A DNA stretch of 64,000 nt from Arthonia radiata. Taxonomy: Eukaryota > Ascomycota > Arthoniomycetes > Arthoniales > Arthoniaceae. The translations under genes and the position numbers were made by a program. Positions 13,012-54,952 of this stretch are shown here, piece after piece. The notes beneath the pieces were generated by a model. It ran no database searches and was not told the DNA's origin. It saw only the letters and a list, made by a program, of their open reading frames with translations. Numbering within the stretch: position 1 is the stretch's first letter; each line of letters starts with the position of its first letter. The DNA is taken from positions 309,178 to 373,177 of the forward strand of contig PSQN01000013.1 of NCBI GenBank assembly GCA_002989075.1. The letters run 5' to 3'.

Positions 13012-13917
13012 ATGATGTCGGACACTTTCGTGCTTCCAGCAGGCGATATTATCTCATTTGAACAGTATCTTTCTTACTTCTCGGACAGGAGACGAGATAT
13101 GGAGGCGGTGGAGCGAGAGTACAGCGAATGGACGGCGCGGTGGGCGGCTGTCTGGAACGAGAGTATAGCGTCATGGACCCTAAAACCGTCCGAGACTTCT
13201 GGCATTGCGAGACTAAGGCAGGCGATGATGAAGACACCGAAGGAGATGGGTCTCGTACATGGCACAGACAGCCGACAACCAACACAATTGCATGGAGTGA
13301 AACGGAAGCGTACCGAAGAGACCGACGTAGCAAAGACAGGGGAGAAGTCATTGTGGCAGCCACCGGATGGCGAGGAAGATCAGGACAGAATGACTCAGCA
13401 ATCGGATGTCCGCGCGCAGGCGATAGCAGCGTGGCAGCAGTCTAAACAATCCTCCATCACCTCACGAATACAGCAGCCTCTACGAACGGGGACAGAACCG
13501 ATCAGTTTTGAGACAGTGGACGTGGCTGAACATTCGATTGTGAAGATCGAGGACGATGACACCGAATGGAGTATTGAAGCATTCGAAGACGCTGGTTTGT
13601 CGGGAGGACGGGAAATGAGCAGAGATGGAGCCAGCGCTATGGACAGAATCAGCGATGGTGACGGAGAGGTTGATACACGAGAGGACTTCGTGACACGTGA
13701 ACATTATGTTAGAGGCAGAGGGTCTGCTAGAAGCAGAGGCTATGGCAGAACACGGGTCAGCGACCGGTCCAGAGGGAGGGTCGTGCGCCGAAACAGAGAT
13801 AGGTATAGAGGCAGTATCAGGGGCAGAGGTGACGAGAGAAACATAGGTAGTAGTGACAGCGGACGAGTGTCCAGAGCGCAGCTGGACGCCGAGTTGGATG
13901 CGTGGCGGTATGGCTAG
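13012..13917 (+). CDS. RG-rich protein with an N-terminal EWxxRW domain (intact paralogue)
   Basis: 301 aa in one exon; I do not recognise a named family. The first 90 residues form a predicted helical domain: ISFEQYLSYFSDRR, then EYSEWTARWAAVW, then KTPKEMGLV. The middle is acidic and polar. The C-terminus (about 235-285) is RG/RS-rich (RGRGSARSRGYGRTR, RGSIRGRG), typical of RNA-binding or phase-separating tails. The same order of elements occurs in the broken gene at 18636-19351 (ISEYEFIAQYAKDR, EYREWSERWNVFW, RTPESLGLV, RGG tail), so the two are paralogues. Start: the first of two adjacent Met codons; the second (13015) is equally possible. Nucleic-acid binding is only suggested by the RG tail. 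Confidence 0.7.
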   Translation: MMSDTFVLPAGDIISFEQYLSYFSDRRRDMEAVEREYSEWTARWAAVWNESIASWTLKPSETSGIARLRQAMMKTPKEMGLVHGTDSRQPTQLHGVKRKRTEETDVAKTGEKSLWQPPDGEEDQDRMTQQSDVRAQAIAAWQQSKQSSITSRIQQPLRTGTEPISFETVDVAEHSIVKIEDDDTEWSIEAFEDAGLSGGREMSRDGASAMDRISDGDGEVDTREDFVTREHYVRGRGSARSRGYGRTRVSDRSRGRVVRRNRDRYRGSIRGRGDERNIGSSDSGRVSRAQLDAELDAWRYG

Positions 13918-18635: not shown

Positions 18636-19351
18636 ATGGCGGACCGATTTGAGCGTCCGGCGAGTGACGTTATTTCTGAATATGAGTTTATTGCACAATA
18701 CGCGAAGGATCGCAATGCTCCTCCAGATGTCATGGATGAGGAGTATCGGGAATGGTCGGAGCGATGGAATGTCTTTTGGATAGGGTCAAGGGAATGTGGG
18801 TGTTTGTGCCGTCGAAGAGGGACAAGATGGCGAAATACAGGGAGGTTCTGAGCCGAACGCCAGAGTCACTCGGCTTGGTGAAGGATACACAAGGTCCAGC
18901 AAACAAGCGGGCATACAACGAAATGGTTTCTCGAGCGCCAACCCCACAGACGCCTCAGCAAAGCATTGCGTTGGTTCGACAGGACGATCAGGCTTTCCAG
19001 GGCACACCGGGCGGACTCCTCGCGCCACCACCGACCGGTCCGCGTGCCACCACAAACAATCAGTCTGGACGTGGGCTCAATACGAATTTTGCTGGGAATT
19101 ATGGTGGATTTCTGGGCGGATATCGTGTTGGTTTTGACAACCACGGTGGATTCAACCCAATGGCGTCCGCGCGATATCAGCCGGCACAGTGGTCAGGGCT
19201 CCATGGTGACGGGCGCGGTGGACGGAGTCGCGGTGGACGGGGTGGTGGCGGACGAGGTCGCGGTGGACGAGGTAGTGGTGGACGAGGCGGTGATGGGCAT
19301 GGTGGTGGTGGACATGGTGGTGAGTCAGTGCAGATCAAGCAGGAGGAATGA
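18636..19351 (+). pseudogene. RG-rich EWxxRW-domain paralogue broken by a 1-nt frameshift
   Basis: Starts at ATG 18636 (MADRFERPASDVISEYEFIAQ) and aligns with the intact gene at 13012-13917 through EYREWSERWNVFW. After the Glu codon at 18792-18794 the homologous frame continues one base out of register (WVFVPSKRDKMAKY... RTPESLGLVKDTQ) to the RGG-rich tail and stop at 19351. Inserting one nucleotide between 18795 and 18797 makes the two proteins the same length here, so an intron is not the explanation. In the current frame translation ends soon after the break. The tail (19200-19330) encodes about a dozen GRGG/GGRG units. Either a recent pseudogene or an assembly error; downstream codons look well preserved. 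Confidence 0.7.
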
Positions 19352-19873: not shown

Positions 19874-20386
19874 TCAAGCTACAGAGCGTTTTTCTAGCAG
19901 TTTCAAATCCGCCTCGCAAGCGAACACCATCTCGCGGCACCATCTCTCCAGACCTTCCATCTTTTTCATCCCTCCTAATACGGCTCCCTTGGCATGCGCT
20001 CCCGCTCTCTCGACCCGAATCTCATGAGTGATCTTCCAAAACATCTCTTTAGCCAGCAATACCAGATCTTTGACCGCTTGGATCTCTTCCGCTATACCCT
20101 TGTCCAGTGAACGTTCTACCCAGCAAACTTCTTTGTACATCGCGTCCAAAGTGTGATGGTTGGGAAAGTCGGGGTCTATGTAGACTTTGGCGTAACGCTG
20201 GCTGTAGTGGAGCATCTGAGCCTTGTTGCTGAGATAATCAGAGCCTGGGTATCTGGTGAGGAGCGCTTCAGTTAGGTAGAGGAGGATTTCCCTGAGGAGT
20301 TCTGGATCATCATGCCAGAACGTCTCGCGGTCGGGGTCGCTCAGCACTGTTGTGGTTTTGGAGGATGCTGATAGATGTTGATCCAT
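19874..20386 (-). CDS. Small helical protein, 'EICxYF' family, divergent member
   Basis: 170 aa from the MDQHLSASSK methionine (20386). The open frame runs 59 codons further upstream, but that stretch is Leu/Phe-rich translation of a CT-rich leader, so the internal Met is preferred. No named family. It follows the plan of the other members: a short polar leader, a motif with helix-forming residues (ELLREILLYLTEALL, residues 29-43), a middle with aromatic residues, and a C-terminal helix pair (WKITHEIRVERAG; RWCREMVFACEADLKLL). It is the most diverged of eight proteins of this type in the window, so membership is tentative. It is tandem with the member at 20955-21425. Confidence 0.55.
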   Translation of the reverse strand: MDQHLSASSKTTTVLSDPDRETFWHDDPELLREILLYLTEALLTRYPGSDYLSNKAQMLHYSQRYAKVYIDPDFPNHHTLDAMYKEVCWVERSLDKGIAEEIQAVKDLVLLAKEMFWKITHEIRVERAGAHAKGAVLGGMKKMEGLERWCREMVFACEADLKLLEKRSVA

Positions 20387-20954: not shown

Positions 20955-21425
20955 TTACCACGGGCTCCAGAAATACTGAGTACCCTTCTCCTTGTATCTG
21001 AAATGCCACAGACGATTGAAGATCGTCATGGACGGTCCATGAATACATGTTGCATTCATGACCGGACCTTGAATCTCCTCAAGGGCTGCGTCGACCATTT
21101 GCTCGAAGATCCTGGTGAGCGCGCACCACTGGTGGTCATGATAGGGCTCGCGGCGTTCATCAAGAGCTTGAAACTCATTCAGATCATCATCATGGAGATG
21201 TTCCAACCAGACTTCGAACTTCGTTTGCTGCCAAAGATTGTGGTTTTGGTATTTGCGGATTGATCTGGTGTTTGGGATCTCCAGAAGTCGCTCGAAGTAG
21301 TCGCAAATCTCGTGCAAGGCTTTGATTCTTGCGTCGGAGAGTGCAAGGCCGTGGTGCGGGGTGCCAGACTCGTTGGATGGGACAGGGTCGCTTGCATCCG
21401 CAGTAGCGAGTGCGTTGCTGTCCAT
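20955..21425 (-). CDS. Small helical protein, 'EICxYF' family
   Basis: 156 aa starting MDSNALATAD (21425). Function unknown. The diagnostic segment ARIKALHEICDYFERLLEIP (residues 32-51) matches the other members: a basic/hydrophobic lead, then E-I-C-x-Y-F, then a Leu/Pro turn. A Trp/His-rich middle follows, then a predicted C-terminal helix (ALTRIFEQMVDAALEEI) in the place of 'ELMRTEIKED' of its relatives. There is no signal peptide or membrane helix. The TAA stop lies inside a GTAAGC sequence that could act as a splice donor, so a longer isoform is possible, but the length already fits the family. Confidence 0.65.
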   Translation of the reverse strand: MDSNALATADASDPVPSNESGTPHHGLALSDARIKALHEICDYFERLLEIPNTRSIRKYQNHNLWQQTKFEVWLEHLHDDDLNEFQALDERREPYHDHQWCALTRIFEQMVDAALEEIQGPVMNATCIHGPSMTIFNRLWHFRYKEKGTQYFWSPW

Positions 21426-30231: not shown

Positions 30232-32119
30232 TGGTTCGGTGAGTCTGGGTTGGGCAAAGCCCCCAGAACGACTCGAGTCTATGAGGACAGGAAGGACAGG
30301 AGATGAAGAGGTACAGCATTCCTAGCTTGGTGTTGAGCGTCGCTTTAAGCGGTATAGCGGTTTGTCTCGCTTCAGAAGTCGTCATCGCTACTATCATCGT
30401 CCAACGCGGATCGGCTAACTTGCTGTTCATCGGAGCTTTGTAGGGGTGAAGATCTATGGGGATAGCGTGGAACGAGAGGTGTCCATCTCTATCCCGGGTC
30501 GTAAACGTATTGTTTGCGCTGTTTCTATTTACCATGCTTTCACTGTATCCGAGGATGTTGAAGGCGTCACTCTGGTGCCGTGCTTGTGATAACGCTGACT
30601 CTTTTAAATAGGCGACCGTCACGAGATAAGGCGTCAGCTAGGTAAAGAGGACGCGAGAGCGGGGGAAGAAATCTTCAGAAGTCGGTGAGTAACGCAAAGA
30701 GCCGAAAACCCGGAGAGCACTGCTTTAGGCAACATCAAGCAGCCATCTTCCCACCTGCTGATAACAACAGCTATATATTTCAAATACCTACCCCGCAATT
30801 TTAACCTTGGTGTAGTCACACACGAAGCCAGGCCAGCTCCACCAAACGCATAACACGGGGGGCGGGGGTGAGTTCGAGTCACGGGAACCACCTTTTACAG
30901 CTGCAGTTCCGGAGAGATAGGAAGGTGTGGAGAGAACAAGGCGTGGAGAGAGAAAGTGGTGGAGAGAAAGGATTACAGTACATGGTCACCGCCCGATCTT
31001 CAAACGTCACACTGTCGCATCGTTCCATCAACACTACGATCTACATCCACACGTCACACGGATGTATATGCGGCGAAGTCGGAGCATCGGACATCGAAAG
31101 GTTGAAATGAGTGAAAGTGACGGTCAAGGAATCGCGGTACATGTGGTGAACAGGACAGAGAGATGGCGTCACAGCTTCAGGCTGGGCGACCAGTGCATGA
31201 ACAGAGGTGGTGTGAGAGGAGTGAACAGTATTAACCGCATGCATGCATGCACCCAGCGAGGCAGCACATTTCGGAGATTCCGGCCGGGTCTCTGATTTGG
31301 CGTTGCCCGCGAAACAGCGCGCCGGCCTTCTCGAGATTGATCACTCGATTTTTTTGTCCTTTTGCTGTTCCTACCCCCTTCACGTTATTTTGCACTTGGT
31401 TATCGCGTGGGCGAGTATATGCAAGCAGCAACTAGAAGGAAGACTCCGCTTGATTGCTCCTTGTGCGGTTCAGAGGGCCAGCGCCTGTTTGTTACGCTCA
31501 ACGCCTCTAGCCTTTCCTCCCCGCCCACCGCTCTTTCCTTCACAGTTCCGATCCAGGGTCTGGTCTGGCCCCTCCTTAACCTTTATGTACTGAAAACTCA
31601 AACCTACCTCTCAACCCTGATGGCACAGACGTGATCACAGGGCCAGCCGCTGAACACCAGGGCGTGGGTTCGAGACCCATGACACAAACTACCGTACAAC
31701 GCACAAACAACAAAGTACTTGACTGTTTTCATCGTTTACTACACAAATACATCGAGAGTTGAGCAACGCAGATGAGATGTGTTACCGTTTGTTGAGACTG
31801 CAGCGTGGTGTGCAGCGTGGACGAAGTGTGTATCGACCTGAATTTACTTGAACCTTTGACGTCTGAAAATTTGTTTGCGGACGCAACACGACATTCGCGG
31901 TGTCGGCGTTGCTTCTGCGAGATTAGCGATCACCTTGTGGCGCATGTTTTTTTTGGCTTTTTGTTCGAGGGCTGTGGTGGAGAGAGGCGGTGTAGCTGCG
32001 ACTGTTTCTTTTTCATTGCCGCTATACCATCATCTCCACGCACAAGGTATCGGAATGCGATGCCCCAACCATTACTGAGACCAGACGATCCTTCACGTTT
32101 ACTTCAACGTTGGCTAATT
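30232..32119. other. Long intergenic region
   Basis: 1.9 kb with no convincing protein gene. It includes a purine-rich stretch (30900-30980, repeated GGAGAGA) and CT-rich stretches (31500-31620). At 31664-31680 a perfect T-arm-like hairpin around TTCGAGA looks like a tRNA B box, but no acceptor stem pairs with it, so no tRNA is called. Confidence 0.4.
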
Positions 32120-32743
32120 TCAAAAGCGACAGCTCGCCGAAAGAGTCTCCGCCTTCCCATCCCACGACCTGGGCTTCATCTTCTGATACAGCTCCAAGAC
32201 CTTTCGCTGCACCCTCAACACCTCTCCGTCATCTTTCAAGCCACACACCACTTTCTCTTCCCTGATCTCCGCCCGCATCATCTCCGTCATCAGCACCAGC
32301 ATCTCACGCAACCTCGGTGGCGGCTCTTCCTTGGCCAGTATCGATGGTAAAGCTCCCTCATGCGCAACTCCGAGATCAGCCATGTTGTCATCGGCCCAGT
32401 TTGCCAACTCAAAGAACCACTGCGTCTCGCGCTGCTGCTCGTCGGAGCTGGGCATGGTGTTCTTCACCATATACTTGGCGTTCGCGGTCTCCTTGCATCG
32501 CGCGTACACGGAACGCTCGGCAGCTGCGTAGTCGGGATTGGTGTCTAGGTGGGCGAGGTAGTGGTTGAAGTAGTCGATGAGCTCCTCGAAGTTTTGCAAT
32601 TTTTGCTGGAAGGCGGCTTTTTCGGGGGTGGGCTGTTTCGAAGCGGGAGCTTCGACGGCTTTACTGTCTCCTGCGGCTTTAGTGGTGGATGGAGATTCGA
32701 CGGATGGATCTCCGCTCCCACCGGCTTCGGAGGTGGTAGTCAT
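32120..32743 (-). CDS. Small helical protein, 'EICxYF' family
   Basis: 207 aa from MTTTSEAGGSGDPS (32743); the further upstream open frame is arginine-rich leader translation. Unknown function. A low-complexity Ser/Thr/Ala leader (1-45) precedes the family motif FQQKLQNFEELIDYFNHYL (about 45-63). The middle carries WFFELANWADDNM. The C-terminal signature, REMLVLMTEMMRAEIREEK, then VLRVQRKVLELYQKMKP, closely matches 'LELMRTEIKEDKKRYG...VLEVQRRMVEVWTKV' of the neighbour at 33170-33631, which supports common descent. No signal peptide or membrane helix; predicted to be nearly all helix. First of six adjacent members. Confidence 0.68.
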   Translation of the reverse strand: MTTTSEAGGSGDPSVESPSTTKAAGDSKAVEAPASKQPTPEKAAFQQKLQNFEELIDYFNHYLAHLDTNPDYAAAERSVYARCKETANAKYMVKNTMPSSDEQQRETQWFFELANWADDNMADLGVAHEGALPSILAKEEPPPRLREMLVLMTEMMRAEIREEKVVCGLKDDGEVLRVQRKVLELYQKMKPRSWDGKAETLSASCRF

Positions 32744-33169
32744 TGGGCACTGACCAGCTGTGAGAGGAGATGGTGCGCGCATACGCAAGAGGATCTGACG
32801 TACCATGTGAGCGGTTTGTACAGCACGACTGGATCTCAAGCTGGAGTGTGCCTTTGCTTCGTGGGCGTATGCTCAGGTAACAGAAACGGGGAAGCAGCGG
32901 GACTAAGAGAAAGCGTCGGAACGAGCGACTTCGAAAAAACACTACGTCACCTGAAAAACAAGATGATCACAACGAAACCGCAGAGCGAAAGGTCTTGGCG
33001 TGATCGAATTCTCATTACGGTGAACGTTCACTGAGGAATCCCAGGCTATCACCTCTCGATTTCCGGTGGCATCCTTGCGCAAGCGTCAAAAATGCAGGTC
33101 GAGTGCCACCCCCCCTGTGGACCTGCTCGCTAATGGCTCTCAGATGACACATCAGAAAGACTCTCAATT
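32744..33169. other. Intergenic spacer
   Basis: 426 bp between two minus-strand family members. Nothing identified. Confidence 0.4.
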
Positions 33170-33631
33170 CTACCTGAGCTTCTGAGATACCTTCGTCCAA
33201 ACCTCGACCATCCTGCGTTGCACCTCCAGTACGGCCGGCTCCGAGGTGATGCCATAGCGCTTCTTGTCCTCCTTAATCTCCGTACGCATCAACTCCAGGA
33301 CCGGATGCATCAACTGACAGAGCTGTTGAGTACACACACGACTATCGAAGTCGAGGGTGGCTGAGTCTTGGGCTCGCACCCATCTGCGATCTTTCCGAGA
33401 ACCTCCAGGGGCATCAAATTCTTCTTTGAGCGCCTCTAGGGTCCTGTAGTAGGGTATGATAGCCTCTTTGTTGCGCCTGTCTACCTTTTCGGGAAGATCG
33501 GCTACCGTGTCGAAATATTTGCAGATCTCGGTGAAGTTGTTGATCTTGGCTGTGAGCGGGTGTGCTTGAGTCTGGTCGTTGGCTGAAACAGTCGAGAGCG
33601 AGTAGGAGCGTTTGACATCGGCGTTGGCCAT
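33170..33631 (-). CDS. Small helical protein, 'EICxYF' family (compact member)
   Basis: 153 aa from MANADVKRSYSL (33631); an upstream Met 6 codons earlier is possible. This is the shortest and clearest form of the family: leader (1-27), KINNFTEICKYFDTVADLP (29-47), a central helix (YYRTLEALKEEFDAP), a polar linker, then LMHPVLELMRTEIKEDKKRYG and VLEVQRRMVEVWTKVSQKL. The two C-terminal helices have clear heptad hydrophobic spacing. No targeting signal. It is divergent from the next member (255 bp between start codons). Function unknown. Confidence 0.7.
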   Translation of the reverse strand: MANADVKRSYSLSTVSANDQTQAHPLTAKINNFTEICKYFDTVADLPEKVDRRNKEAIIPYYRTLEALKEEFDAPGGSRKDRRWVRAQDSATLDFDSRVCTQQLCQLMHPVLELMRTEIKEDKKRYGITSEPAVLEVQRRMVEVWTKVSQKLR

Positions 33632-33886
33632 GGTGTTGCCTCTCTGCACTTCAAATTGAGAAACCCCTTTGAGAAGTAAGGTTATAGCGGGGGAGAAGAA
33701 AGAATTGTTGAGTCACGAATTGTTTGTCGTTTTCGTCGACGCTCTTCGCGTGAAAACTCCAAATGCGGCCAAGCGTAGACCGCTTCGTCACATGTCCACG
33801 AAGTCATCTCTGCAATCTTCTTCATTCATTCTTCATCGCACACACCTTGTGCGTACCTGACTGGCGCGTTCAGAGCAACTCAAACC

Positions 33887-34492
33887 ATGCCTACCGATCC
33901 ACAAGTGTCCAGCACTCACGCCAAATCCGACAAGCCACCCAATACAATGGAAAAGAACGTGGAAACCGCAGCACAAAATGCGCTGATGGACAAGGTCAAC
34001 GTGTTTGAAGAGATCTGTGTCTACCTTGAACAGGTCGTCGCTCTCCCAGAGAGACGGGTCAACGAAAATAGGGAGCTCACCAAGGCGATGCAGTGGACTT
34101 GTCATAAACACGCGCACGAATCCCGAGACAAACCCAATGAAGCCAACTGGTATTACGCCGAGAGGGATCATTGCGGTGACATGATCAGACTGATACGGCA
34201 GCAATTTGTAGACATGGGTGGCTTTTTCATGAGCAAAAAGGAGCTGGAAGGAGAGCTGACCAACCTGATCAGTCCGCTTTTAAAGGAGATGGTGCGGGAG
34301 GTCCAGGATGCCCGCACGGTTGCTGTCGCGGATGCCGATGAGCAGTCCAAGGAGCCAAAGCGATTGCAAGGGAGACTGATGGAATTGCTGACCAGGCCTG
34401 GGTTCATGTTCTTTCACGAGGACAACCAAGAATGGCAGCCTGTTGAACAGAAAGCGGCGGCCGATAATGAGAATCAGCACAAGCGCCAATGA
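33887..34492 (+). CDS. Small helical protein, 'EICxYF' family
   Basis: 201 aa, single exon. Family motif MDKVNVFEEICVYLEQVVALP (34-54), then WTCHKHAHESRDKP and NWYYAERDHCGDMIRL in the middle, and the C-terminal helices LISPLLKEMVREVQDA and KRLQGRLMELL in the same order as its neighbours. It has an extra polar tail (about 165-201, Gln/Asn/Glu-rich) that others lack. Transcribed away from the 33170-33631 gene, convergent with 34695-35210. No recognised domain. Confidence 0.68.
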   Translation: MPTDPQVSSTHAKSDKPPNTMEKNVETAAQNALMDKVNVFEEICVYLEQVVALPERRVNENRELTKAMQWTCHKHAHESRDKPNEANWYYAERDHCGDMIRLIRQQFVDMGGFFMSKKELEGELTNLISPLLKEMVREVQDARTVAVADADEQSKEPKRLQGRLMELLTRPGFMFFHEDNQEWQPVEQKAAADNENQHKRQ

Positions 34493-34694
34493 GCTAAAGA
34501 GTGAAGCGTGTGGAATGTGTTCGGCTATCATGTTTCATGAGCGATCCAGTCCGACGGCGATGCTTTCGCGGTCCGTAGCAGTCAGCTGTCACAAGGCGGA
34601 CCACGCTGTTCGACAAGAAGGATCCGGGATCCATGCCGTTGAGCTTCCAAGGGCTGTACCGTACAGAGCATTGGCCATTGACCCCACAAATGCG

Positions 34695-35210
34695 TCATGA
34701 AGCCAGCTTCTCAATCCACTTCATAGTCATCTGGATCGCTTCTCCATCAGCCTCTCCGTTCTCCCGCATCTCCACAAGTTCCTCCTTCATCGTCCCCAGA
34801 ACGGCCAGCACGATCTCCGCCAGCTCTTCACGTGCATCACCCCGATCACGGATGTTCTCCTGCGCCTTCAGATACAGCCTCTTGATGTTGATAACGCTCC
34901 GACGCTTTTCTACCTCGTACCACTTCGAGAGGTCTTTGAGGTCTTCAAGCTCTCCGAAAGGCGTTCCTTGCCGGATTTGCGTTTCCATCTCTAGGTAAGT
35001 ATTCTCCGAATGCTCGGCCAAGACGGTGTCATGTTGTTTGGCCAGATTGTACTCGGCTACCATGGCTGGCTCGGCACCCTGGTGGATCGTTTGAAGACGT
35101 TCGAAGTAGGCTAAGATTTCATTGAAGCGGTCGAGCTTGGTGGACGGTTTGGATGACGAGCCGGCGTTTTGACCGGCCTGGACGGTGACGTTAGATGCGA
35201 TGGGATCCAT
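34695..35210 (-). CDS. Small helical protein, 'EICxYF' family
   Basis: 171 aa from MDPIASNVTVQAG (35210). Motif STKLDRFNEILAYFERLQTI (23-42), where the usual Cys is replaced by Leu. Middle region DLSKWYEVEKRRSVINIKRLYLKAQ; C-terminal helices EIVLAVLGTMKEELVEMREN and AIQMTMKWIEKLAS. The stop directly follows the second helix. Charged and Met-rich, no targeting signal. It is convergent with the preceding member and divergent from the next. Unknown function. Confidence 0.68.
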   Translation of the reverse strand: MDPIASNVTVQAGQNAGSSSKPSTKLDRFNEILAYFERLQTIHQGAEPAMVAEYNLAKQHDTVLAEHSENTYLEMETQIRQGTPFGELEDLKDLSKWYEVEKRRSVINIKRLYLKAQENIRDRGDAREELAEIVLAVLGTMKEELVEMRENGEADGEAIQMTMKWIEKLAS

Positions 35211-35618
35211 AATCCACAACTAGTCGAGTTTGTGACGATGCGGAAGAGTTGAAGTTTTCTTCGTTGAATGAGCGGGGGTTCTGTGGTGTCAAAGCTGAAG
35301 GTGCGAGGTGAGGCTAAAAAGGAGAGCTGCAAATTCACTGCCACTAGCGGATGTTTTTGTGGCCGACAGGCAAATGTGTCTGTTCAGCTCAGAAAGGTAC
35401 TTAGAAGAGGTGAGACGCAGAGGATGTCAACGCCCTCGAACCGAGACCGGAAGCGACTTCTTTCAATGCATGCAAGAAGGTGAACCGGTCATGTTCGTGA
35501 CAATGTCACCACTGCTGTACCAGCTGCTCGACGTCTAAGACTCTTCCACGCTTATTCTTTTCGCATACTTTACTGGAAGAACTACTACGTGCATCTTCGA
35601 CCACGAAACTACTTCAAC
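35211..35618. promoter_or_regulatory. Shared upstream region of two family members
   Basis: 408 bp between divergent start codons of the 34695-35210 and 35619-36311 genes. No specific element identified. Confidence 0.35.
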
Positions 35619-36311
35619 ATGGCATCAACCAGAGCTGATAGTCTTCCATTGCAAGCCAGAATGAAAATCTGGTACGAGCTCTGCGACTACTTCGAAACTC
35701 TCTTCAGCTTGCCTGGTCCGCGTATCGAAGCGGAGGACTCACAGACTGAGCACTACAAGACTATTGCCACAAAGAAGGCTCGGGAAGCACGAGCGGTCGA
35801 TAATAAGTCCGAGAAAAAGGAGTATCTTGAACACGCGGTCAGCAGAATCTGAGTGTGGCATTGCACTGGTGTTACTGGCAAGTCTTCTCAGACATGGGCA
35901 GATCAAAAGCTCTGGGGCGCCCGCGACCGACACGCCGCCGAGATCTTAGAGCTGGCGGAGTTCATCTCGCCCATTGTCAAGGTCATGCGCGATGAAATGG
36001 CCGAGATTGCGGATGAGATGGGGAAGGCTACGCAGGAGATGATCGATCTGGACACGAGGCTGGCGGAATTCGGCGGTGAAGAAGAGGACTACGATTCTGT
36101 TCTTGATGCGGACGAAGACGAACATGAGGATACGGGTGCTGCAAATGCCGAGAACCTTGAAGAGAGATTCGATGAAGACGATGAAGAGTATTCGGATGAC
36201 CCCGAGGAAGATGCTGAAGATGCTGAAGATGCTGAAGATGCTGAAGATGCTGTAGGAGGGTTACAGAACGGCGACGGAGACTCCGAAGACGAGAAGAACC
36301 ACGCAGTCTAG
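35619..36311 (+). CDS. Small helical protein, 'EICxYF' family, with acidic repeat tail
   Basis: Exons 35619..35837 and 35892..36311 give 212 aa. The intron (54 bp, weak donor GTCAGC, acceptor TCTCAG) contains an in-frame TGA; splicing restores the family order. Residues 10-32 are PLQARMKIWYELCDYFETLF plus Leu-Pro. After the junction come TWADQKLWGARDRHA and the C-terminal helices ILELAEFISPIVKVMRDEM and EMIDLDTRLAEF. The final 80 residues are extremely acidic with EDA tripeptide repeats, absent from relatives. Without splicing the product would stop after 78 residues. The donor is non-consensus, so the alternative is a pseudogene with a premature stop. Confidence 0.6.
36210..36252 (+). repeat. 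(GATGCTGAA)n coding microsatellite
   Basis: Nearly five perfect 9-bp units in the acidic tail of the 35619-36311 gene, encoding (Glu)-Asp-Ala repeats. Length-variable but frame-preserving. Confidence 0.9.
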
Positions 36312-36897
36312 AAGCTGATCCCGTTGAGGACATCTGTGCTGGCGTTTCCGCGAGCGTCGATGGGACGACGGAGCTGCATGCTATCCGACTAGCCCACATG
36401 TGCGCTCAAACGCTCTGGCCCGCCGATACCCTCGTCTTGATCTTTAAACTTGGCCAAGAACCTGCGAGCTATTTCCTCGCACCTTGCAAGACTGCTGAGC
36501 TTTTGAGACCACAAAATAGGGCTCTAGCTGATCATAACCATCATGTGACTGCCACTGCCATCAGCTTCGTCGGATCATGAACGGCTATGAAGTGCTGATC
36601 TCAAGGCTGATTTTGATTCCCGATCTGCACGACCAGGATCAGGTGAGACGCTGAGGTGAGGCACTGCAAAACAACAACAGATGACGTAACTCAGTAATAA
36701 CTTTCCGCACAAACGACGCACTCAAGAACTTCTTTGCACAAGTCTTCGACGCATCGAACAAAGTCTTCCTTGATCTTTTCAACTCGAGCAGCCTGAAGAA
36801 CCGCATGGAAGTCAACCTTGCCAAGTAATAAGGACGTGCGCAGTCAGACTCGAGCAATCTCAGCTTCGACATCCGTGTTGCAGTTCACCACGACGCC
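36312..36897. other. Intergenic spacer
   Basis: 586 bp between two tandem plus-strand family members. No gene or repeat recognised. Confidence 0.4.
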
Positions 36898-37508
36898 ATG
36901 ACTGACGAAGCCGAACTCAATGCTGAGGCCAAAGCTGCGGCCGGCAAAGCTGGCACCACCGCCAAAGATTACGGCATCGTGAAAGCTAGCATCCCCAACG
37001 ATGCTGCTGAAAAGTCCACGACCAAAGCGAAGCTGAGGGCCTTCAACGAGATCTGCAACTACTTCCGAAGGATTTTGGAGGCTCTGGCGTTGACGAGCAG
37101 CCCGCCACTGGAGCATCGCTTGATGCAGGAATATTCCCACGAAAACTCTGAACGATATGAAGAAACGAATCTCCAATTTGATCAAGAACGCATTTGGTAT
37201 GGGCACGAAAATGACGACGTTCTAAATATGGGATATGATCTGGAGGAGCGGGTGCCGAGCGACGACTTTCCGGACGTTGTTGAGATGCTCTTCGACATGT
37301 TGGATGAGATGAGCAGTGAGTTGAAAGAATTGAAGAAGGTCACGGACGATGACCGTGGTATTAAATCGCTGCAGACAAACATCGTGAGTCTCTTGGACAG
37401 CACCGCTGCCTTCATAATCGGTTGACAAATATTCAGAGGAAGTTAATGGTATTCGAGAGCATGAGGACATTCTCTGTCAACAAGTATGGCCTCCGCTATC
37501 GCAATTGA
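36898..37508 (+). CDS. Small helical protein, 'EICxYF' family
   Basis: An Ala/Glu-rich leader (1-40) precedes KAKLRAFNEICNYFRRILEAL (43-63). The middle has WYGHENDDVLNMGYDLEERV; the C-terminal helices are VVEMLFDMLDEMSSELKEL and IKSLQTNI. Two models: unspliced, stop at 37425 (175 aa, ends LLDSTAAFIIG); or spliced 36898..37383 + 37437..37508 (185 aa). The second uses a perfect GTGAGT donor, a TTGAC branch-like site and a TTCAG acceptor, phase 0, ending with IRKLMVFESM. I slightly prefer the spliced form because helix two then continues as in its relatives. Function unknown. It is the last of the six adjacent members. Confidence 0.65.
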
Positions 37509-37836
37509 TGGGTTATCATCGACAGCTCATGCCCATGAACGAGGTATTGACATCGCGTGGATGTTTGGTCGTCAGCATCCACGTCGTGTGAAATATGTTA
37601 TCGGGTGGAACCAAGACCCTTTACATGATGCGATTGCGGTCCGCAACAAAGCTGCCGGATAAGCTGCGGCGGTCCCACACGTTCGACGAGACAGACCTGG
37701 TCCAATTTGATAGGGTCCAGTGAGCATTGTCTGAGACGCATGAAGAAGTATGCACATGTTTTATGTCGTGGCATCGCATCGAACGCGTAAGCTGTGTTGT
37801 AAAAACAATCAAGCTACCTGCACAAGCAAGCGACGC
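37509..37836. other. Intergenic region
   Basis: 328 bp between convergent genes. Nothing identified. Confidence 0.4.
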
Positions 37837-39687
37837 TCACACCACGAACCAACTCGAATTACCAGCAATGACAGCGTTCAGCCGCGCATTCAACTGCCTC
37901 TCCTCGAACTGTGCCAACTTCTGTGCGATCTCTCGCTCTTCTTTGACCCAGTCCTGCTCGCTCAGCAGGTCGTGATCGATTGCGCCGCTAGTTATAGAGC
38001 TGAAGCCTCTCCAGAACCAGCTCTCGCTCTTTGGCTTAGCTTCATTTTCCGCTTGCCGAGCACGGGGATCACCGTTCGCCGCCTTCTGTTCGTGCGCCAG
38101 CACTCCGAGCATGTTCTTCCAATTCTGCAGGCCCTCATGCACACACTGCTCGCAGACTTTGACACCCTTCTTATGAAGTAGCGTGTCAGCCATGCGTCTT
38201 TCAGAAGCCTCTGTCGCGTCCTTCGTCCAGGCAAGGCCCTCTTTTCGACGATTCATCTTCGCAAAGAGGATTTCCGCGACATAAAGTGACAGTGCAGCCT
38301 CTTCACACTCCTCGCTCTTCTTGCGTTCGAGCGGCTCATTTCCTGATGGTGGCAGCGGGACTGGCTCCGGTGGGAAAGGCAGCGATGTGATCCATTGAAT
38401 GACGCTGTCGATGTTCCTCAGGCTGAAGTCCTGGGTTTGCGGAGGATGCTGCCGACCTCGTGGTGCTGGCTCTGCATTCCGTCGAGCGCGCAATACCGAC
38501 AAGTAAATGGCAAGTGCTTCGTTGATGCGGTCTGTGTCAGCGAAATGACGCGCAAAAGCTGTGCTACAAGCGACAATGTTAGGCGTGACAATGGGAGCAT
38601 TTGGTCTGATAACGCCAGTCCTAGTATCAAGGACGGAGTCTGCCGAGACGTTCGCGGGCAGACCACCCATAGCAAGATCGAAGCTCCATCGGTACATCCG
38701 TTCGGCTTGATCATGGTCGCCGGTGTGATCCAAGTACGACGCATACGCCAGTCCAGCGTCCATACGTTGGGGCGATGTGAAGCCCTTTGTGGTCAATATG
38801 CGCTTGTAATGGAAGGACGGCGGCTCAAAAGACGGCCAGCATTCGCTGATATCAGGACACTCTTTCCCGGACATGGGTGGTAATGGCACAGGATATGGAT
38901 TGTCGTCCGACCGGATATGTTGCGGCGCGTACGCCGACCCGTCGCCTTTGAACGTCATATATCCCTCTCGCATCTCAGACGCCTTCGCCATGCCCAACAT
39001 CGCCTCAAAGTACCCCCTCCGCCATTCCTCGCTCTTCATCGTGGTATCGTACCCGATGCGATTGGGCCACATAGGCTCGCCCTTCTCTACCTCTGCAGGC
39101 GTGAACATCTCCATCGGTGTCCGCAGCTCTTCCTCCGCAGCAAACGGCAGACTCTCATCCCACACACCCTCTTGCGCCACCAACCCCGTCGGCCTCCTCA
39201 CAATGAACCTGTAATCCTCCAGCAGCGCCACCGCATTCCGGAAGTGACTTCCAATCTTGCTCCAATCCAGCATGCCCCGCCCATGCCCCTCCGTCTCCAG
39301 CTCATGCTTCGCGCTCCTCCAGTACCACTTTATGATGAACCGCCACTCCGCCGGCGCAGGATACAGTCTGTCTAGCCAGTCTTGCCGGAGGAACCAGAAG
39401 CAGACCATGCCGCCGAGGAAGACCGTCCAGCCCATGACGGACCAGTAGAGGCCGAGCTTGATGCTGTATTTGATGTTGGCTGTTTGCTCGGTAGAGAGCA
39501 GGCGATTGCGCGTGGGGTGTAGACGCGATGTGAGGAAGGGGAGCTGTGGGCGGATGGAGGGGCGCGCGAGGGCGAGGAGGCGTGGGGATTTGCTGGTGAA
39601 GAGGCGCAGAGGTGGGTTTGGATTGGGTGGCCGGAAAGGGTGGAGGAGAGGCCATAGGCGCGAGAGGCGGCTGCGGAGAGGATGCAT
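37837..39687 (-). CDS. Mitochondrial inner-membrane TPR protein, Mgr3-like
   Basis: 616 aa from MHPLRSRLSRLWPLLHPF (39687). Further upstream only a TTG continues the frame. The leader is Arg/Pro/Leu-rich with almost no acidic residues up to about residue 70, a strong mitochondrial presequence. One transmembrane helix follows (LYWSVMGWTVFLGGMVCFWFL, about 80-100). The soluble part has helical repeats that fit TPRs: WSKIGSHFRNAVALLED; RMDAGLAYASYLDHTGDHDQAERMYRWSF; RINEALAIYLSVL. This topology matches Mgr3, the adaptor that hands substrates to the i-AAA protease Yme1. Many fungal homologues carry the misleading label 'MFS maltose permease', but there is only one membrane helix. The Mgr3 role is inferred from topology. 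Confidence 0.72.
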   Translation of the reverse strand: MHPLRSRLSRLWPLLHPFRPPNPNPPLRLFTSKSPRLLALARPSIRPQLPFLTSRLHPTRNRLLSTEQTANIKYSIKLGLYWSVMGWTVFLGGMVCFWFLRQDWLDRLYPAPAEWRFIIKWYWRSAKHELETEGHGRGMLDWSKIGSHFRNAVALLEDYRFIVRRPTGLVAQEGVWDESLPFAAEEELRTPMEMFTPAEVEKGEPMWPNRIGYDTTMKSEEWRRGYFEAMLGMAKASEMREGYMTFKGDGSAYAPQHIRSDDNPYPVPLPPMSGKECPDISECWPSFEPPSFHYKRILTTKGFTSPQRMDAGLAYASYLDHTGDHDQAERMYRWSFDLAMGGLPANVSADSVLDTRTGVIRPNAPIVTPNIVACSTAFARHFADTDRINEALAIYLSVLRARRNAEPAPRGRQHPPQTQDFSLRNIDSVIQWITSLPFPPEPVPLPPSGNEPLERKKSEECEEAALSLYVAEILFAKMNRRKEGLAWTKDATEASERRMADTLLHKKGVKVCEQCVHEGLQNWKNMLGVLAHEQKAANGDPRARQAENEAKPKSESWFWRGFSSITSGAIDHDLLSEQDWVKEEREIAQKLAQFEERQLNARLNAVIAGNSSWFVV

Positions 39688-48290: not shown

Positions 48291-49590
48291 TCATTCGACC
48301 CACCATTCCATTATGATGTTGGCCGCACTCATGACTTCGGCCAAGCCAGGCGGTGGTGCTTGAAGGTGCTTTTCTCTGCAGCGGCCGCGGTCGGACTTAG
48401 CCAGAATGATATTGCGTAGATGTGGCAGGTGACTGTGCTTGTTTCTCGCAAGGGAATGCAAAGCGACCTCGAAAGGCTGCAGGCTGTACTGCTGATCGAT
48501 TGTGCTTTCGTCCTCAACGAAGCCGAGCTATAAGAGTCAGCATGAATCGCTAAGCGTAACGACCTCGAGAACGGCATACTCGTAAATTCTCTAGGGACCT
48601 CGGCAGCCGCTTGTACGCATGCGTATCTGCTTCAACTTGCGGTATCAGAATATGCGCCGGGCTTTCGAGGTCAAAAACTTGAGGTGACCAGGCTGGAAAG
48701 AGAGGAGCAGCTCGCTTCATTAGAAGTTCGACTCGAAAGGTCAGATCTCTCAACGATGTGAACTCTGAAAAGTCGATGACCTCAGCTGAGGATGGATTGA
48801 CCAGCGGATCATCATCGCTGATCCTATAATATTCGATGCAAAGCCGAGTCAGCTGCATACGATATGGTTCCAAGTAGTTCATGATCCGGCTCAACCATTC
48901 CTCGTGGCCAGTAGCCCACCAGATTTCCAAACACTCAATATTAGGCAACCAGAAATGTAGGTCCTCGAGGCTTTGGAGAGTACTCCATGAGCGGCTGTGG
49001 AACTTCCTGACCCTCGACGTGACTCTGAGAGCTTCGGCGAGGTGGAGCTCGCTCATAAGGGCACTACTCGGCTTAGGCACCGACGATGACAACAAGGTTA
49101 TCTCTTCCAGGTTCTGCAGGCGGCAGAGCGAGGCGAAGTTGCGCTCCTTCAAGCGGCATGCAAGAGACATGACTGAGATATTACTGAGCAGCTTGGGATC
49201 CCGCAGTAGGTTCTCTGCGAGGTCATCGTATTCAAATTCATTCAAGCCCACCGAGTCGACTACAAATGTGGTCACATGAGGCAAGCTTGAGATGAAGCGC
49301 AGGACCATGTCGACGAGTTCTCGAGCATGTTGTGGTGTGTAGTCTTGAGGAGGGTCTCCGGCGAAGCCCAAGTAGCGCGGATGTGCCTTCAAATCAGGAC
49401 GTCGATCGAAGACAGTGCTTGCGAAGGACTGCAGCTTTTTACCATTATGAGGATCGAACTGTACGCTGCTATACAATAGCGGCTCCACAAGTGTATGGAT
49501 ACTGCGGTTGACAAGCGACAAAGCATAGTAGTCTGCGTGGGGAAGAGACTGGAATGCTTTGAATAGCATCTCGTTCGGAAGGTGTAGCAT
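48291..49590 (-). CDS. F-box protein, array member 1 (intact)
   Basis: Probable substrate adaptor of an SCF ubiquitin ligase. Exons complement(48291..48527, 48580..49590), 415 aa; intron GTATGC...TTATAG, phase 0. The F-box is at residues 2-45: LPNEMLFKAFQSLPHADYYALSLVNRSIHTLVEPLLY. A leucine-rich body follows, with array-conserved phrases (LLRDPKLLSNISVMSL; SLCRLQNLEEITLLSSS; WLPNIECLEI; YKRLPRSLENLR before the intron). The last exon (79 codons) ends ...ANIIMEWWVE; the W-W ending recurs in members 2-4. The intron position, directly after RLPxSLxxxx, is shared by members 1-4. Target unknown. Confidence 0.8.
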
Positions 49591-49913
49591 TGTTGGCGTT
49601 GCTGTTAGAAGAGTTGTTGGAAGATCGATGGGCTTCTTTGCTACGCCGCATGCAGATGAGAATCACTGAGACGCTAGGACGGAATAGGTTAGTACACCAA
49701 TTGCATCCTTGTAATTCCACCGGTGCGCTTCAGTCCTGGGTGTTGAATGCTGTTTTGGACATGAAAGACAGGTTCTGGCTGGTCAAATCCAATCGCCGTA
49801 TCTCGATGTACGAGGCGACCTTCATCATTATCTTGGGGGAGCTTCGCCGTGCTCTGGTCAAGCAGAACACTTGTTCACAGCATCATACCTGCTAACACCA
49901 GCGCGGCATTGCT
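49591..49913. other. Intergenic spacer in the F-box array
   Basis: 323 bp. Promoter of member 1 and 3' flank of member 2. No other feature. Confidence 0.4.
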
Positions 49914-51204
49914 TCAAGGCCACCACTCAAAATCGATCTCCGCCGCGTTCATAGCTCGCTGCAGCTGCGGACAAGGGGGACGAGGTTCCTCATGCGACGT
50001 ACGTTCCGCGTAGAAGTGTCCGTCCAGCGAGATCCGCCGCAGATTTGGCAGTGATCGTCTTTTGAGGTTCGCTAGAGCACAAAGCGCCTCTGTGCACTTC
50101 TTGGTATCTTCGGCAAGCAGCCTCCCGTGATCGTCTTCAAACGGAAACTGCGTTTGTCAGTACGAAGCCTGATCGTGAATTTGCAGTCATCGGCTTACTT
50201 GAACGATCTCCAGCGACCGTGGTAAACGCTTGCCAATGTGCGCATCAACTTCGATAAAACGTTGGACATCCTGATAATTTTCCTCCTCAGACATATATCA
50301 TATCGTCAAGCCCGGCCCGGTACCCCTCCCCAAGGCTGAAGAGAATCTGAATGGGCACGCTGAGCTCTTGAAGCTTCAACAACGACGAAAACTGGATCTG
50401 TGGTTCAACTCGCGGGTTGTGAGGCTCTGGAAATAGCAGGCAAAATCGTTGGGCGTGCTCTGAAAAGGCTTCGAAACAGCGATATAAGTCCCTCAGACTC
50501 CCTCTTCCTTCAGGGCTCCACTGCATAGTTATATCCTGCAACTGAGGCAGCCAGTCGGGTAAGTAGCGAATGCCCTTCGGTGTAGAAGTGATGTTGTTGA
50601 AGAGCGTTAGTAGACTTGAGCGGCCCCTGATTGCAAGTGGTGGATACGCTCCCCTATCGGAGGGCTCTGCATCAATTGATGGAATTTCCTCCAACCCTAC
50701 TGTCGCATTTTCGAGACATGGCAGACAGAAGAGCCACATGAGTGAGCGCAAGTCAAGGTCCAGACAAGTATGAAAAGTCGTGATGTTGCTAAGTGCCTTG
50801 CTATCCCGCAAGATATGATCTGTCACGCTACTAGGGCAGTCTCTTGACATCAAGTCACCAGTCGAGAAATATGTCAAATTCGGGAGGCTGAGAAGTAGTT
50901 CCCTGAACAAAGCGCCCATTCTTGGAGTATCTGCCGGTTGGTCATCTCCAGCCGGACTTTGATATTCGATGGATTGTATGAAATAGCGGTACTCTGGCCT
51001 CCACTTAGTGATTGTCTTTTTCAAGCACTTCAGGTCCCACGCATCGAAGCGCCGAAGCAGGACCGCGCTGTACAGTAGAGGAGCGACGAAATCGTGAATG
51101 TGATGATTCACTAGAGATAAATGCAAATAGCTGGATACAGACAGATTAGGGTCGTACAGAATTTTTGATAGGATCTCAGCAGGCAGACTGTCGAGCGCAG
51201 GCAT
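49914..51204 (-). CDS. F-box protein, array member 2 (1-nt frameshift near 3' end)
   Basis: F-box at residues 5-46 (SLPAEILSKILYDPNLSVSSYLHLSLVNHHIHDF), body with LRDSKALSNITTFHTCLDLD and WLPQLQDITMQW. The uninterrupted frame ends at 50287 (305 aa). Homology to the other members continues one base out of register: EEENYQDVQRFIEVDAH, then GKRLPRSLEIVQ, then a GTAAGC intron (50148-50198) and a last exon 49914..50147 ending ...NAAEIDFEWWP. Removing one base near 50289 makes the first exon 1005 nt and brings everything into phase 0, as in members 1, 3 and 4. So this is a recent lesion or an assembly error. If real, the product lacks its last 110 residues but keeps the F-box. Confidence 0.65.
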
Positions 51205-51381
51205 TTTGAGTGACTCGTTGCTTCGTCAAAAAGATAAGTTTGCGCGCTGGGGATGCGTTCGCGCTGGGACATGCCTGCGCTAGCGTGAGGCTGGGCATAT
51301 GATTGTGTGCAATATTCGATCATCAAGGTGCTGGGACACCTGCGTGAAGATGGAAGGCCAGGGGCTGATTTCATGGTGACA

Positions 51382-52673
51382 TCACTGAATCCACCACTGC
51401 ACTTGGATGCCGGCCCCATACATGGCCATCACCAGATCAAGCGAGAGATGTTTGTGGTCCTCGCCGACAGGGCCGCAACAGAGGCGACTCCCGTCAAGAT
51501 GTAGAGTCTTCAGGTGCGGCAGCACTTGCGATTTTTTCTGGGAGAGGGCGAGTAACGCTTCTCCATAGAATGGAATGTCGTTGAAGATTGCTCCACCATG
51601 ATCTTCGGCGAACACGACCTGTGTCGGTCAGCACAGGCATATCTACGATAGGTTTCACTCACATGCAGAGTCTTCAAAGAGTTGGGGAGTCGTTTCCAAC
51701 ATTCGACGTCTACTTTAGCGCATCACTGCGTCTCGCAGGTCTTGCGCGTGTTTCTTACCTCGGCATCGGCAGTATAATCGCTTCGCCATTCGAAAAGGAA
51801 CTGTGCCGGTACACTGAGTTCTCGCAGTTTAGGATATCGCGAGAAGTCTAGCTCTGGTAGAGCCTGAAGATTAGAAGGCATGCCATTTTGGAGCACGAGA
51901 GATATTCGCCGAAGATAGGGGGCGAGTTCTTGCAGATCTGACGATACATATGCAGTCGGCCAGTTATCGTTTGTAAGCCACTCCAGCTCGAGATCCTCGA
52001 GGCGAGGTAACCACCGACGGAGATTTCCGACGCGGCGAGGAATGCAGATTTTGTTGTTCACCAGCGTCCTGACCTTGGAACGACCGCGTATTGAGGTAAG
52101 CGGATATCCCATCTGCCGTGACTCCGCGTACACTGAAGGAACATTGTCCAGAGGTAGCGAAGCAGTCTTGAGGTGCGGCATACGTAACACCCACATCAAA
52201 GAGCACGTGTCAATCACTCCGTGAATTCTCAGATCGGTGATACCGGACAACATGTCGTCGTCCGACATAAAATAGATCAATGTATCATCCGAAATTGGGC
52301 CCATATCTGTCGATCCAATCGAGACTTCGTGCAGATTGGTCAAACAAGGTAGCAACTTTTTAATAAGGCGGTCGAATCGGGGGCTCACTGTGGTCTTGTT
52401 ACCGAAGCGTAGCTGTTGTAAATGTATCGACCGCACCGGTACAGCTAGAGCTGGGTTTCTGTAAGAGATCGCGAAATTGAACTTTACTAGTGTGCGTGAA
52501 AATTGGGAATTATTCGACCCATTGATGACGACGTCGTGGTACAGCATAGGCTTGACCAATTCCTTAAGCCGGCGATTGACCAGCACGAGACGACGATAGT
52601 CACCTTTGGTAAGTTTAGAGTCCCGGAGAATGCTTAGGACGATCTCAATTGGCAAATCGTGCAATGAAGCCAT
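51382..52673 (-). CDS. F-box protein, array member 3 (in-frame TGA)
   Basis: Exons complement(51382..51618, 51663..52673). Start MASLHDLPIEIVLSIL (52673); a Met three codons upstream is also possible. The F-box is at 5-45. The body has SIRGRSKVRTLVNN and WLPRLEDLELEW. A TGA at 51723-51725 stops translation after 316 residues. The same frame continues behind it (CAKVDVECWKRLPNSLKTLH), reaches the conserved GTGAGT intron and the final 79-codon exon ending ...IQVQWWIQ. Spacing from WRSDY to WKRLP equals that in intact member 4 if the TGA stands for one residue, which argues for a point nonsense change (for example CGA to TGA), not an intron. Likely a young pseudogene. Confidence 0.65.
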
Positions 52674-52843
52674 TGTTCGCATTTGACGCGTCTGACGGTG
52701 GCGGGCATGGCGTCTTGTTGTTTCCGGAAAACGCGCCAAAGAAAATAGCTTGTCTGTAAGAAGCTAGCGCGACGTCCTAGTGCATATAAGGATGTAGATG
52801 CGAGCGCTGAGCGGCTCCGTGTCAATTCGCACGGTGCGGCTGC

Positions 52844-54144
52844 TCAGGGAAAATGTCGGGAGTCGTTGAACCACCACAGATCAATATTCGCAGACTTCAG
52901 AGCTCGTAGCAGTTCGCGTTCAGGTTGACGTGAGTCTTCACAGCGCACAAAGTTTGAGCATCCATCTTTGGTGGATGTTGCGATATGTTGCAGTCGAGGC
53001 AAAGAGCGCGCTTTGTTTTGAGCTGTAGCTATTAGAGCGTCCTGCCAAAGTCTCTACTGATTAACGAGGTCTCTGCCGTAAGAGTTAAGAAAGGTAGCCT
53101 GCGATGATTAGTGACTGCCACAACTCGGTAAAGTGTGTTACTCGCTCGACTCACGGTGAAGCTCTGAATAGACACCGGCAACCTTTTGTATAATTCGCGA
53201 TCTGCGCACACGCAGTCGAAAATACTCTGATTTAACGCGTCAAATTCGCCGTCTGTCATCGTGGCATAGCGTGCTTCTCGCCATCTGATGAGGAATTGCA
53301 CGGGGACTTCAAGGTGCCTCATTTGCGGAAAACAGCTCAGATCTAACTCAGATGCGGCAGCAGGATCGCCATCGCCTCCAAATTCAAATGACAGATGTTG
53401 AAGGTGCTGTTGAAGAGACGCAAAATAGGTAGAGAGCTCCGCCAATTGAATGCGATCGTCCCAATTCCAGGAGTAGCTCAGACTTTCGAATTCCGGACAC
53501 CACGACGGGAGATGATCGATTCCTTCCGGCGTGCCTGCAATGTCGTTGATCAGGCGCTTCAACCGTGAGCTACCCCTTATCGACTCAGACGGACAATCTG
53601 GGCTGTCAATGTCGAGATCTATGGGTGGAAAGAATTCTAGAAATGCGCTCAAGTCCCGCAGGTTCGGCAGGCAGAGGAGCCACATGAAGGATTCCACATC
53701 GATGTCGAAATGCAGGTCAACCTTCCTGACGTTCGCCAACACATCGCAGTCTCGTAAGACGCAATTTGTCACCCACTCTGTTTCGAACCAGATGTCGCTT
53801 TCTCCAAAATCTATCGCCCACAACCGGGGCAAGTGCGGGACCAATTCTGTAAGCCAAACACCAGTCCTCTCACCATCGGAGCTGCGTTCGGACTTGCTCC
53901 AGCACGGGACGTGTAGTGACTGGACAAGGGGCCCAAAATGGCCGCTGCGCTGTAAGACAGTCGGCTTTAGCAGCTCGAAATTATGCGGTGAATACAGCTC
54001 TACATCGCAATATAGCCAGGACAGGCTCAAGTCGTGAACGCGGTGATTGACGAGTGACAATGCGGCATGATCTTGTTGAGATAACGCATCGTATCCAAGT
54101 ATATATGAGAGCAGCTCGTCTGGCAAAGACAGAAGGAATGCCAT
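52844..54144 (-). CDS. F-box protein, array member 4 (intact)
   Basis: Exons complement(52844..53041, 53155..54144), 395 aa. Intron GTGAGT...TTGGCAG is 113 bp, phase 0, at the array-conserved site after YKRLPVSIQSFT. The F-box is at residues 5-45 (SLPDELLSYILGYDALSQQDHAALSLVNHRVHDLSL). The body shows VLRDCDVLANVRKVDLHFDID, SIRGSSRLKRLIND and WCPEFESLSY. The C-terminal exon ends ...LKSANIDLWWFNDSRHFP. Without splicing the frame runs on into a weak 3' extension to 53032; the spliced tail is favoured because it restores the W-W ending of the paralogues. Predicted SCF adaptor; target unknown. Confidence 0.78.
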
Positions 54145-54299
54145 GGCTGTTCGAAAGGCTGTTCGGAAAAGTTTCTAGGACTGAGAAACGCAGCTCATTG
54201 CAGACGCGCTAGGAAAACGAGCTTGTCTTAGTTTGGCTAGCTTTATCTTTAGCGCGTTTCATCGATGAACGCGAGGAAGGGAGGCTTTTCAACTCCGTC

Positions 54300-54890
54300 A
54301 ATGCAGCGTCATGTCTGTTTCTTCAATGACTCTCAGCAACTCAGGCTAGCACAATACCGTCAGATCATATGCATTTGCGTTCAAAGCTTTCGGACGGAGG
54401 ACGATATTGGCTAGCTTCGGCAAACGTATGCTTTTCTTTCTCTACTAACGCTGTTCCGCCTTGTACGCTGAGCAGACCTTGCGCAAGGGATGCGTAGCAG
54501 CCACAACCTTTCGAGATCTCACCGCCCATACTTCTAGAGAAGGTGGAAGGCGTCGGTGACTGTGGACATACACCGGCCGGTTATCGTTAGGGTCTGCACT
54601 CCCTGGCTTATCCCTCAGCAAGAACTTTGTAGGCACTTCCAAATGTTATAGCAGAGGGAGATGGGATGCTTCTGCTGTCTGAAGTGAGGCTTGGTCTCTG
54701 CCACTCTCGGAAGATGTCAACAGGGGGGTTTTCAGGTCGTGCGCAATAGCCGCCAATCTGGCTTTGGAACACTAAACTCAGCGAAAAATCTGAACAGCTC
54801 CTTATGATCGACCTTCAGGTTCAATTCGACCAAATTTGGCGTCCATTCCCAAATCGGTCGATGCGTGATGCCTAGCCATAGATATGGAAC
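54300..54890 (-). pseudogene. F-box gene relic, array member 5
   Basis: Only the C-terminal half survives and it is broken. Recognisable scraps on the minus strand, in order: PIWEWTPNLVELNLKVDH (like RWCPDLTDVTLVSDH of member 6), LEVPTKFLL, HRRLPPSLEVWAV, then RLPKLANIVLRPKA and LLRVIEETDM, separated by frameshifts and stops. No F-box remains. An old copy in the head-to-tail array. Confidence 0.6.
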
Positions 54891-54952
54891 TTCATCGCTG
54901 GATATCTGCTGTACTCTTCATACCCGATCTGACCCTTGTACCACGAAAAGCT

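Follow-up and report, generated by a model that had tools for sequence, protein, structure and literature searches.

Six clustered genes for small, divergent proteins in Arthonia radiata and the genome-wide family to which they belong

The six-gene cluster

The stretch of DNA analysed here, called the window below, comprises 64,000 nucleotides of contig PSQN01000013.1 from the fungus Arthonia radiata. Six neighbouring open reading frames (ORFs), labelled g1 to g6, occupy positions 32120 to 37508 and are distributed over both strands, where a sequence-only reading had reported a cluster of fast-diverging small proteins. Their predicted products range from 153 to 212 amino acids, and they belong to one protein family with many further copies in the same genome.

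Gene g1 (32120 to 32743, minus strand) encodes 207 amino acids when counted from the second in-frame ATG, within an ORF that stays open to position 32806. It is followed by g2 (33170 to 33631, minus strand; 153 amino acids), g3 (33887 to 34492, plus strand; 201 amino acids) and g4 (34695 to 35210, minus strand; 171 amino acids). The remaining two genes, g5 (35619 to 36311, plus strand; 212 amino acids) and g6 (36898 to 37508, plus strand; 185 amino acids), carry proposed introns of 54 nucleotides (35838 to 35891) and 53 nucleotides (37384 to 37436), respectively. Both introns are GT..AG sequence models only, and many alternative splices are listed for g5. The tails of the proteins differ, as had been claimed: that of g3 is rich in glutamine, and that of g5 is long and acidic, with a 9-bp tandem repeat of 5.1 copies (36207 to 36252, plus strand) encoding Asp-Ala-Glu repeats. 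In the claimed frames, the codon scores of g1 to g6 resemble those of reference genes (+0.08 to +0.24 bits per codon), and 29 of 30 scores for other frames are negative, the exception being a frame of g3 (+0.03). Judged by this in-frame codon signal, g1 to g6 are most probably real genes.

A seventh member, g7 (20955 to 21425, minus strand; 156 amino acids), lies in the window beyond the interval originally described. The sequence-only reading had spoken of eight proteins and left two of them unnamed, and g7 accounts for one of these. The likeliest eighth, a candidate at 19874 to 20386 (minus strand), has a similar order of motifs by eye and an in-frame codon signal, and its homology is unsupported: no pairwise z score exceeds 1.8, and its E values are 2.2 and 2.6 with the 26-member and outside-only profiles described below.

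Family membership and genomic extent

Several pairs of window proteins score far above 200 shuffles in Smith-Waterman comparisons, with z values of 11.1 for g1-g2, 9.9 for g2-g5, 9.4 for g1-g6, 8.7 for g2-g3 and 7.7 for g4-g6. Other pairs have no direct link of this kind (1.4 for g1-g5, 1.9 for g2-g4, 2.2 for g3-g4 and 0.6 for g5-g6). A profile trained on 20 proteins of the same genome from outside the window recovers all seven window members, with E values of 4.6e-11 (g4), 1.1e-10 (g6), 8.9e-9 (g7), 1.6e-7 (g2), 2.3e-7 (g5), 2.3e-6 (g3) and 4.9e-6 (g1); the best reversed or shuffled ORF reaches 0.99. When the window profile is compared with the outside profile by hhalign, the probability is 96.8% (E 2.4e-10). 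A profile of 26 members also matches all six of the ORFs that were never used in training. These are located on contig C5 (5.4e-18), on C9 at 1000 kb (2.8e-13), 972 kb (6.7e-11) and 1002 kb (8.0e-11), on C12 at 246 kb (5.1e-13) and on C4 (2.3e-7), and the best shuffled and reversed controls score 0.15 and 2.5.

These results bear on the explanation that the proteins are unrelated, and that a composition rich in glutamate and leucine makes helical sequences resemble each other by chance. Pairwise identity is low, helical proteins do draw spurious matches, and a profile built from the window alone misses 9 of the 20 outside members. However, with the 26-member, outside-only and window-only profiles, reversed or shuffled ORFs never score better than 0.077, compared with 1e-5 to 1e-18 for members outside the training sets, and the rare residues tyrosine and tryptophan are each kept in 25 of 26 proteins. 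For g1 to g7 chance resemblance is refuted at the level tested, and we assign it almost no weight. By profile and pairwise evidence, the seven proteins share common ancestry as a single family; that they might prove unrelated to each other was one of the outcomes that the sequence-only reading had named as fatal to its proposal.

The genome assembly comprises 33,499,693 bases in 16 contigs, of which those discussed here are labelled C1 to C12, with the window on C3. Genome searches with g2 or g6 as single proteins yielded only weak matches, at C1:3297789 (E 0.037), C2:2145510 (0.085) and C2:1772197 (2.63), and each of these sits inside a group of similar ORFs. An iterated profile search over 283,235 bases of genome stretches then collected 33 sequences, either ORFs or exons, with E values of 1e-3 or lower and a best reversed control of 0.18, and further searches led to additional loci on C4, C5, C9 and C12. 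Counted by hand, with adjacent exon pieces taken once, the family has 39 genes, which occupy ten loci spread over seven contigs. They are distributed as seven genes on C1, five near 1.77 Mb and five near 2.15 Mb on C2, seven in the window, one each on C4 and C5, three near 973 kb and two near 1001 kb on C9, and four near 250 kb and four near 1.23 Mb on C12. By this count the window holds one locus out of ten, and about 32 genes lie elsewhere in the genome, beyond what a reading of the window alone could reveal. The tally is a lower bound since the genome search scores word-sharing candidates only, and some of the split copies within it could be pseudogenes. If it holds, at least 39 genes, equivalent in number to about 0.6% of the 6,931 in the A. 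radiata annotation (PMC5887037), would belong to one family with no catalogued domain.

Several other candidates were kept out of the tally. The genome match at C9:2737812 (E 0.23) falls in an ORF for an unrelated 505-amino acid protein, and the ORF L049:2052-2555 (plus strand; E 0.037) might be a more divergent or damaged member. An ORF that adjoins the C1 group (C1:3299374-3300117, plus strand) starts with GFGGEE and continues with acidic residues, resembling part of the g5 tail (LAEFGGEEED), and could represent exon 2 of a further member. Two DNA patterns were also tried as finders. The first was uninformative, giving 10 matches, fewer than the 24 and 27 of its reversed controls, and its eight loci hold no member; the second matched two sites only, both in the window, in g7 and g2.

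Age, anatomy and possible relatives

Although the copies are neighbours, the mean identity within loci is only 18.9% (49 pairs). This agrees with the low identity that had been noted for the cluster. The mean between loci is 15.7% (276 pairs), and none of 2000 permutations of the locus labels gives a difference as large. On a tree of 29 members the locus labels require 12 changes, compared with 19.6 when shuffled, and 0 of 200 shuffles are as low. At shared residues, fourfold sites are identical in 145 of 453 cases for pairs within loci and in 649 of 2031 for pairs from different loci. Both fractions are 0.32, where composition alone predicts 0.27, and this upholds the view that no recent duplication is involved. 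With synonymous sites as saturated inside loci as between them, the duplications are old, and the copies arose by local duplication followed by dispersal long ago. Such saturation is a sign of age and not of rate, and the rapid divergence or strong diversification suggested by the sequence-only reading is no more than a possibility.

Similarity at the DNA level persists over the codons of helix 1 only. A stretch of 41 bp in g5 (35655 to 35695) is 80% identical to one in g7 (21048 to 21088), and the remainder of these two genes cannot be aligned as DNA. Either gene conversion or strong local constraint may account for this match. The helix-1 regions of g2 and g6, which are on opposite strands, also form an inverted pair of 43 nucleotides with 74% identity.

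The possibility that the genes are domesticated or decaying ORFs of mobile elements, spread by transposition, draws on the dispersal of copies over seven contigs and on stops inside the matched stretch of some copies, which may represent introns or decay. Ranged against it are the absence from the interval 30500 to 38500 of direct or inverted repeats such as would flank an element and the lack of DNA similarity among the loci compared, where nothing beyond matches of 22-26 bp was found (best E 0.019). There is also no signature of repeat-induced point mutation by general thresholds for the index (composite of -0.84 for the cluster and -0.73 for the window), the indices of the two being alike, and the flanking genes are ordinary ones, including those for Coq4, an AFG1-type ATPase, a protein with PALP and CBS domains and a DHHC protein. 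We consider a mobile-element origin very unlikely.

Four positions characterize the family among 26 aligned members, a set that leaves out g5 and the split-exon copies. These are a glutamate (26/26), a tyrosine four residues later (25/26), a tryptophan in the middle region (25/26) and a glutamate in the late helix (23/26), the last of which follows by seven residues a position that is methionine in 17 of 26. The first helix thus has E-x3-Y, and the late helix usually has (M/V/L)-x6-E. The four residues are E54, Y58, W109 and E159 in g1; E35, Y39, W84 and E118 in g2; E42, Y46, W88 and E138 in g3; E31, Y35, W97 and E144 in g4; E51, Y55, W100 and E141 in g6; and E39, Y43, W100 and E117 in g7. The V-Q-R-(R/K) motif that had been proposed for a final helix is clear in g1 and g2 and partial in g3, but it is not visible in the alignment of g4 to g7. 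Leaders are polar and tails are variable; members on C9 resemble g5 in having tails that are long and acidic.

In all 26 members the best mean hydropathy over 19 residues is at most 1.32, which suggests that the proteins are soluble. For the six window members counted, the best mean over 12 N-terminal residues is at most 0.40, a crude measure and not a signal-peptide prediction; a few members outside the window reach 1.5-1.6. Since the window members lack a hydrophobic N-terminus by this measure, the idea of secreted effectors, one form of the functions contemplated by the sequence-only reading, seems less likely. Structure prediction and fold comparison had been suggested as a check, and the AlphaFold2 models of g2 and g4 are all-helical with mean pLDDT values of 71.5 and 68.5. 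These two models of moderate confidence indicate that the family fold is probably all-helical. By fold, three-helix up-down bundles in the PDB of the spectrin-repeat, GAT and syntaxin Habc type are the closest candidates. No Foldseek match to the PDB was found at E<=0.001, an absence that is no evidence for a new fold.

The proposal that the family is undescribed and has no known domain also held up. No member of the window set or the 26-member set passes a curated Pfam cut-off (best E 0.016 in both), and the 13 Pfam families that are each matched by one of the 26 members at E<=0.1 are judged to be chance. The 26 members likewise give no NCBIfam match above cut-off, the best (E 0.002, one member) being judged chance, and no PHROGs match at E<=0.01. 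Among seven proteins searched against PADLOC, one member each matches GajA (0.0047) and AriAB (0.0059), again judged chance, and no PDB sequence is matched at E<=0.001 (best 0.043, judged chance). None of the literature titles listed describes the family, which does not show that no such paper exists. These observations support the conclusion that a family with the E-x3-Y, W and late-E signature is undescribed.

A search of 5.8 billion proteins with an alignment of the seven window proteins gave 2475 candidates, none at E<=1, and one with a single outside member gave 23 candidates, none at E<=10. Both require shared words of five residues, of which there are few within the family, mostly between neighbours or near-relatives. 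Absence from the database is weak evidence because such words are rarely present even within the family. As a positive control, a conserved neighbour of the cluster (616 amino acids) found 154 proteins, the best being 68% identical over its whole length and from Coniocarpon cinnabarinum, a species of the family Arthoniaceae in the class Arthoniomycetes. This control proves that fungi are present in the database, where a family that changes quickly might still escape detection; A. radiata is not a source organism among the matches listed for it. The family is provisionally considered to be lineage-restricted.

Possible functions and genomic surroundings

The explanation that we favour, at slightly less than even confidence, is that the proteins of this large and lineage-restricted family, small, soluble and all-helical, act as diversified protein-protein interaction modules, possibly in recognition. 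Perhaps the E/Y/W/E quartet holds a small helical bundle together or forms one common contact, and variation among copies is left to the remaining surface, the tails and the polar leader. Each copy would then be a small module inside the cell that binds a protein partner of its own. The loose tandem groups in which the copies sit, amid ordinary genes, go back to old local duplication with dispersal.

Several points count against this explanation. Its binding mechanism is one that we infer from sequence, and the variability of the surface could be neutral drift. The window-only profile retrieves 11 of the 20 outside members at E<0.05, with its best control at 0.077, and the outside members were discovered via searches seeded with window proteins, so that the training of the outside-only profile was independent and the discovery was not. 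The tree is weak: a single inner branch out of 26 has good support, and the median end branch is 1.81 changes per site. Of the six multi-copy loci, two fail to group, namely those on C2 near 1.77 Mb (500/500 shuffles as low) and on C12 near 250 kb (77/500). Finally, the pTM values for g2 and g4 are 0.52 and 0.44, and the tryptophan region is placed at low confidence.

Alternatively, the family may be old and its helical proteins may share a mundane role, for instance a structural, regulatory or chaperone-like one; the copies would then have drifted apart outside a constrained bundle core, with neither recognition nor diversifying selection. The equal synonymous saturation is in keeping with this, showing age without rate, and so are the conserved positions, which are few and lie mostly on helix faces. 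Set against it is the contrast between the 616-amino acid neighbour, with its close counterpart in Coniocarpon, and the family, for which no relatives were found; this hints at faster change, and the hint is weak given the word-limited searches. A mundane role is a serious contender, even if we think it less likely than not.

A self/non-self or conflict system would instead involve polymorphic recognition or effector copies under diversifying selection, deployed in hyphal fusion, in lichen symbiosis or against parasites. Clustered, divergent copies resemble known fungal recognition families, and the many copies and divergent tails would suit such a system. Like lineage-specific, clustered multigene families of fungi in general, this family is arranged in tandem groups, has copies that are numerous and divergent, contains no recognised domain and has no relative that was found elsewhere. 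The differences are that the window proteins show no obvious signal peptide, that the loci lie amid ordinary genes and that synonymous divergence is old. None of the 26 members scanned has a HET, STAND/NLR or other recognition-type Pfam domain, including at E<=0.1 the HET domain (which we take to be PF06985) and NACHT or NB-ARC. We regard such a system as unlikely. About as improbable is its boldest form, an Arthoniomycete-private, genome-wide repertoire of dozens of helical recognition proteins that have diversified around an invariant E/Y/W/E core, serving self/non-self or symbiont recognition and unrelated to known fungal systems.

If the tally holds, the family is a concrete target for work on structure, polymorphism and expression in a little-studied fungal class, and the conserved glutamate, tyrosine, tryptophan and glutamate positions offer sites for mutagenesis. 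With its copies about 16% identical to each other, this large family escapes ordinary searches.

A tandem group of F-box-type ORFs (48550 to 56218, minus strand) in the same window has also been considered in favour of a recognition system. The ORF at 48550 to 49590 passes the Pfam cut-off (E 3.4e-8), those at 50287 to 51204, 51723 to 52682 and 53032 to 54144 fall below it (E 0.0014 to 1.5e-4), and the last, at 54953 to 56218, has no match and a similar beginning. The tandem arrangement recalls that of the family genes, but these F-box-type ORFs (PF12937/PF00646; 48550 to 54144) constitute a different family, and none of the 26 members matches an F-box model. Such a neighbourhood is also not recurrent at three other loci, where 0 of the 10 neighbours scanned have an F-box match and five have no Pfam match. 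The window and these three loci are flanked by ordinary genes, which in addition to those named above include ones for a dienelactone hydrolase and a SAP protein.

An acidic, low-complexity ORF of 1143 amino acids (57572 to 61003, minus strand) has no Pfam match at E<=0.01. The ORF at 12138 to 12752 (plus strand) contains repeated units of the ASYTVVGGTTSPILSG type, each of about 40 residues. Two ORFs on the plus strand with tails rich in arginine and glycine, at 13012 to 13917 and 18752 to 19351, are 35% identical over 31 residues (E 8e-5) and are perhaps another local pair of paralogues.

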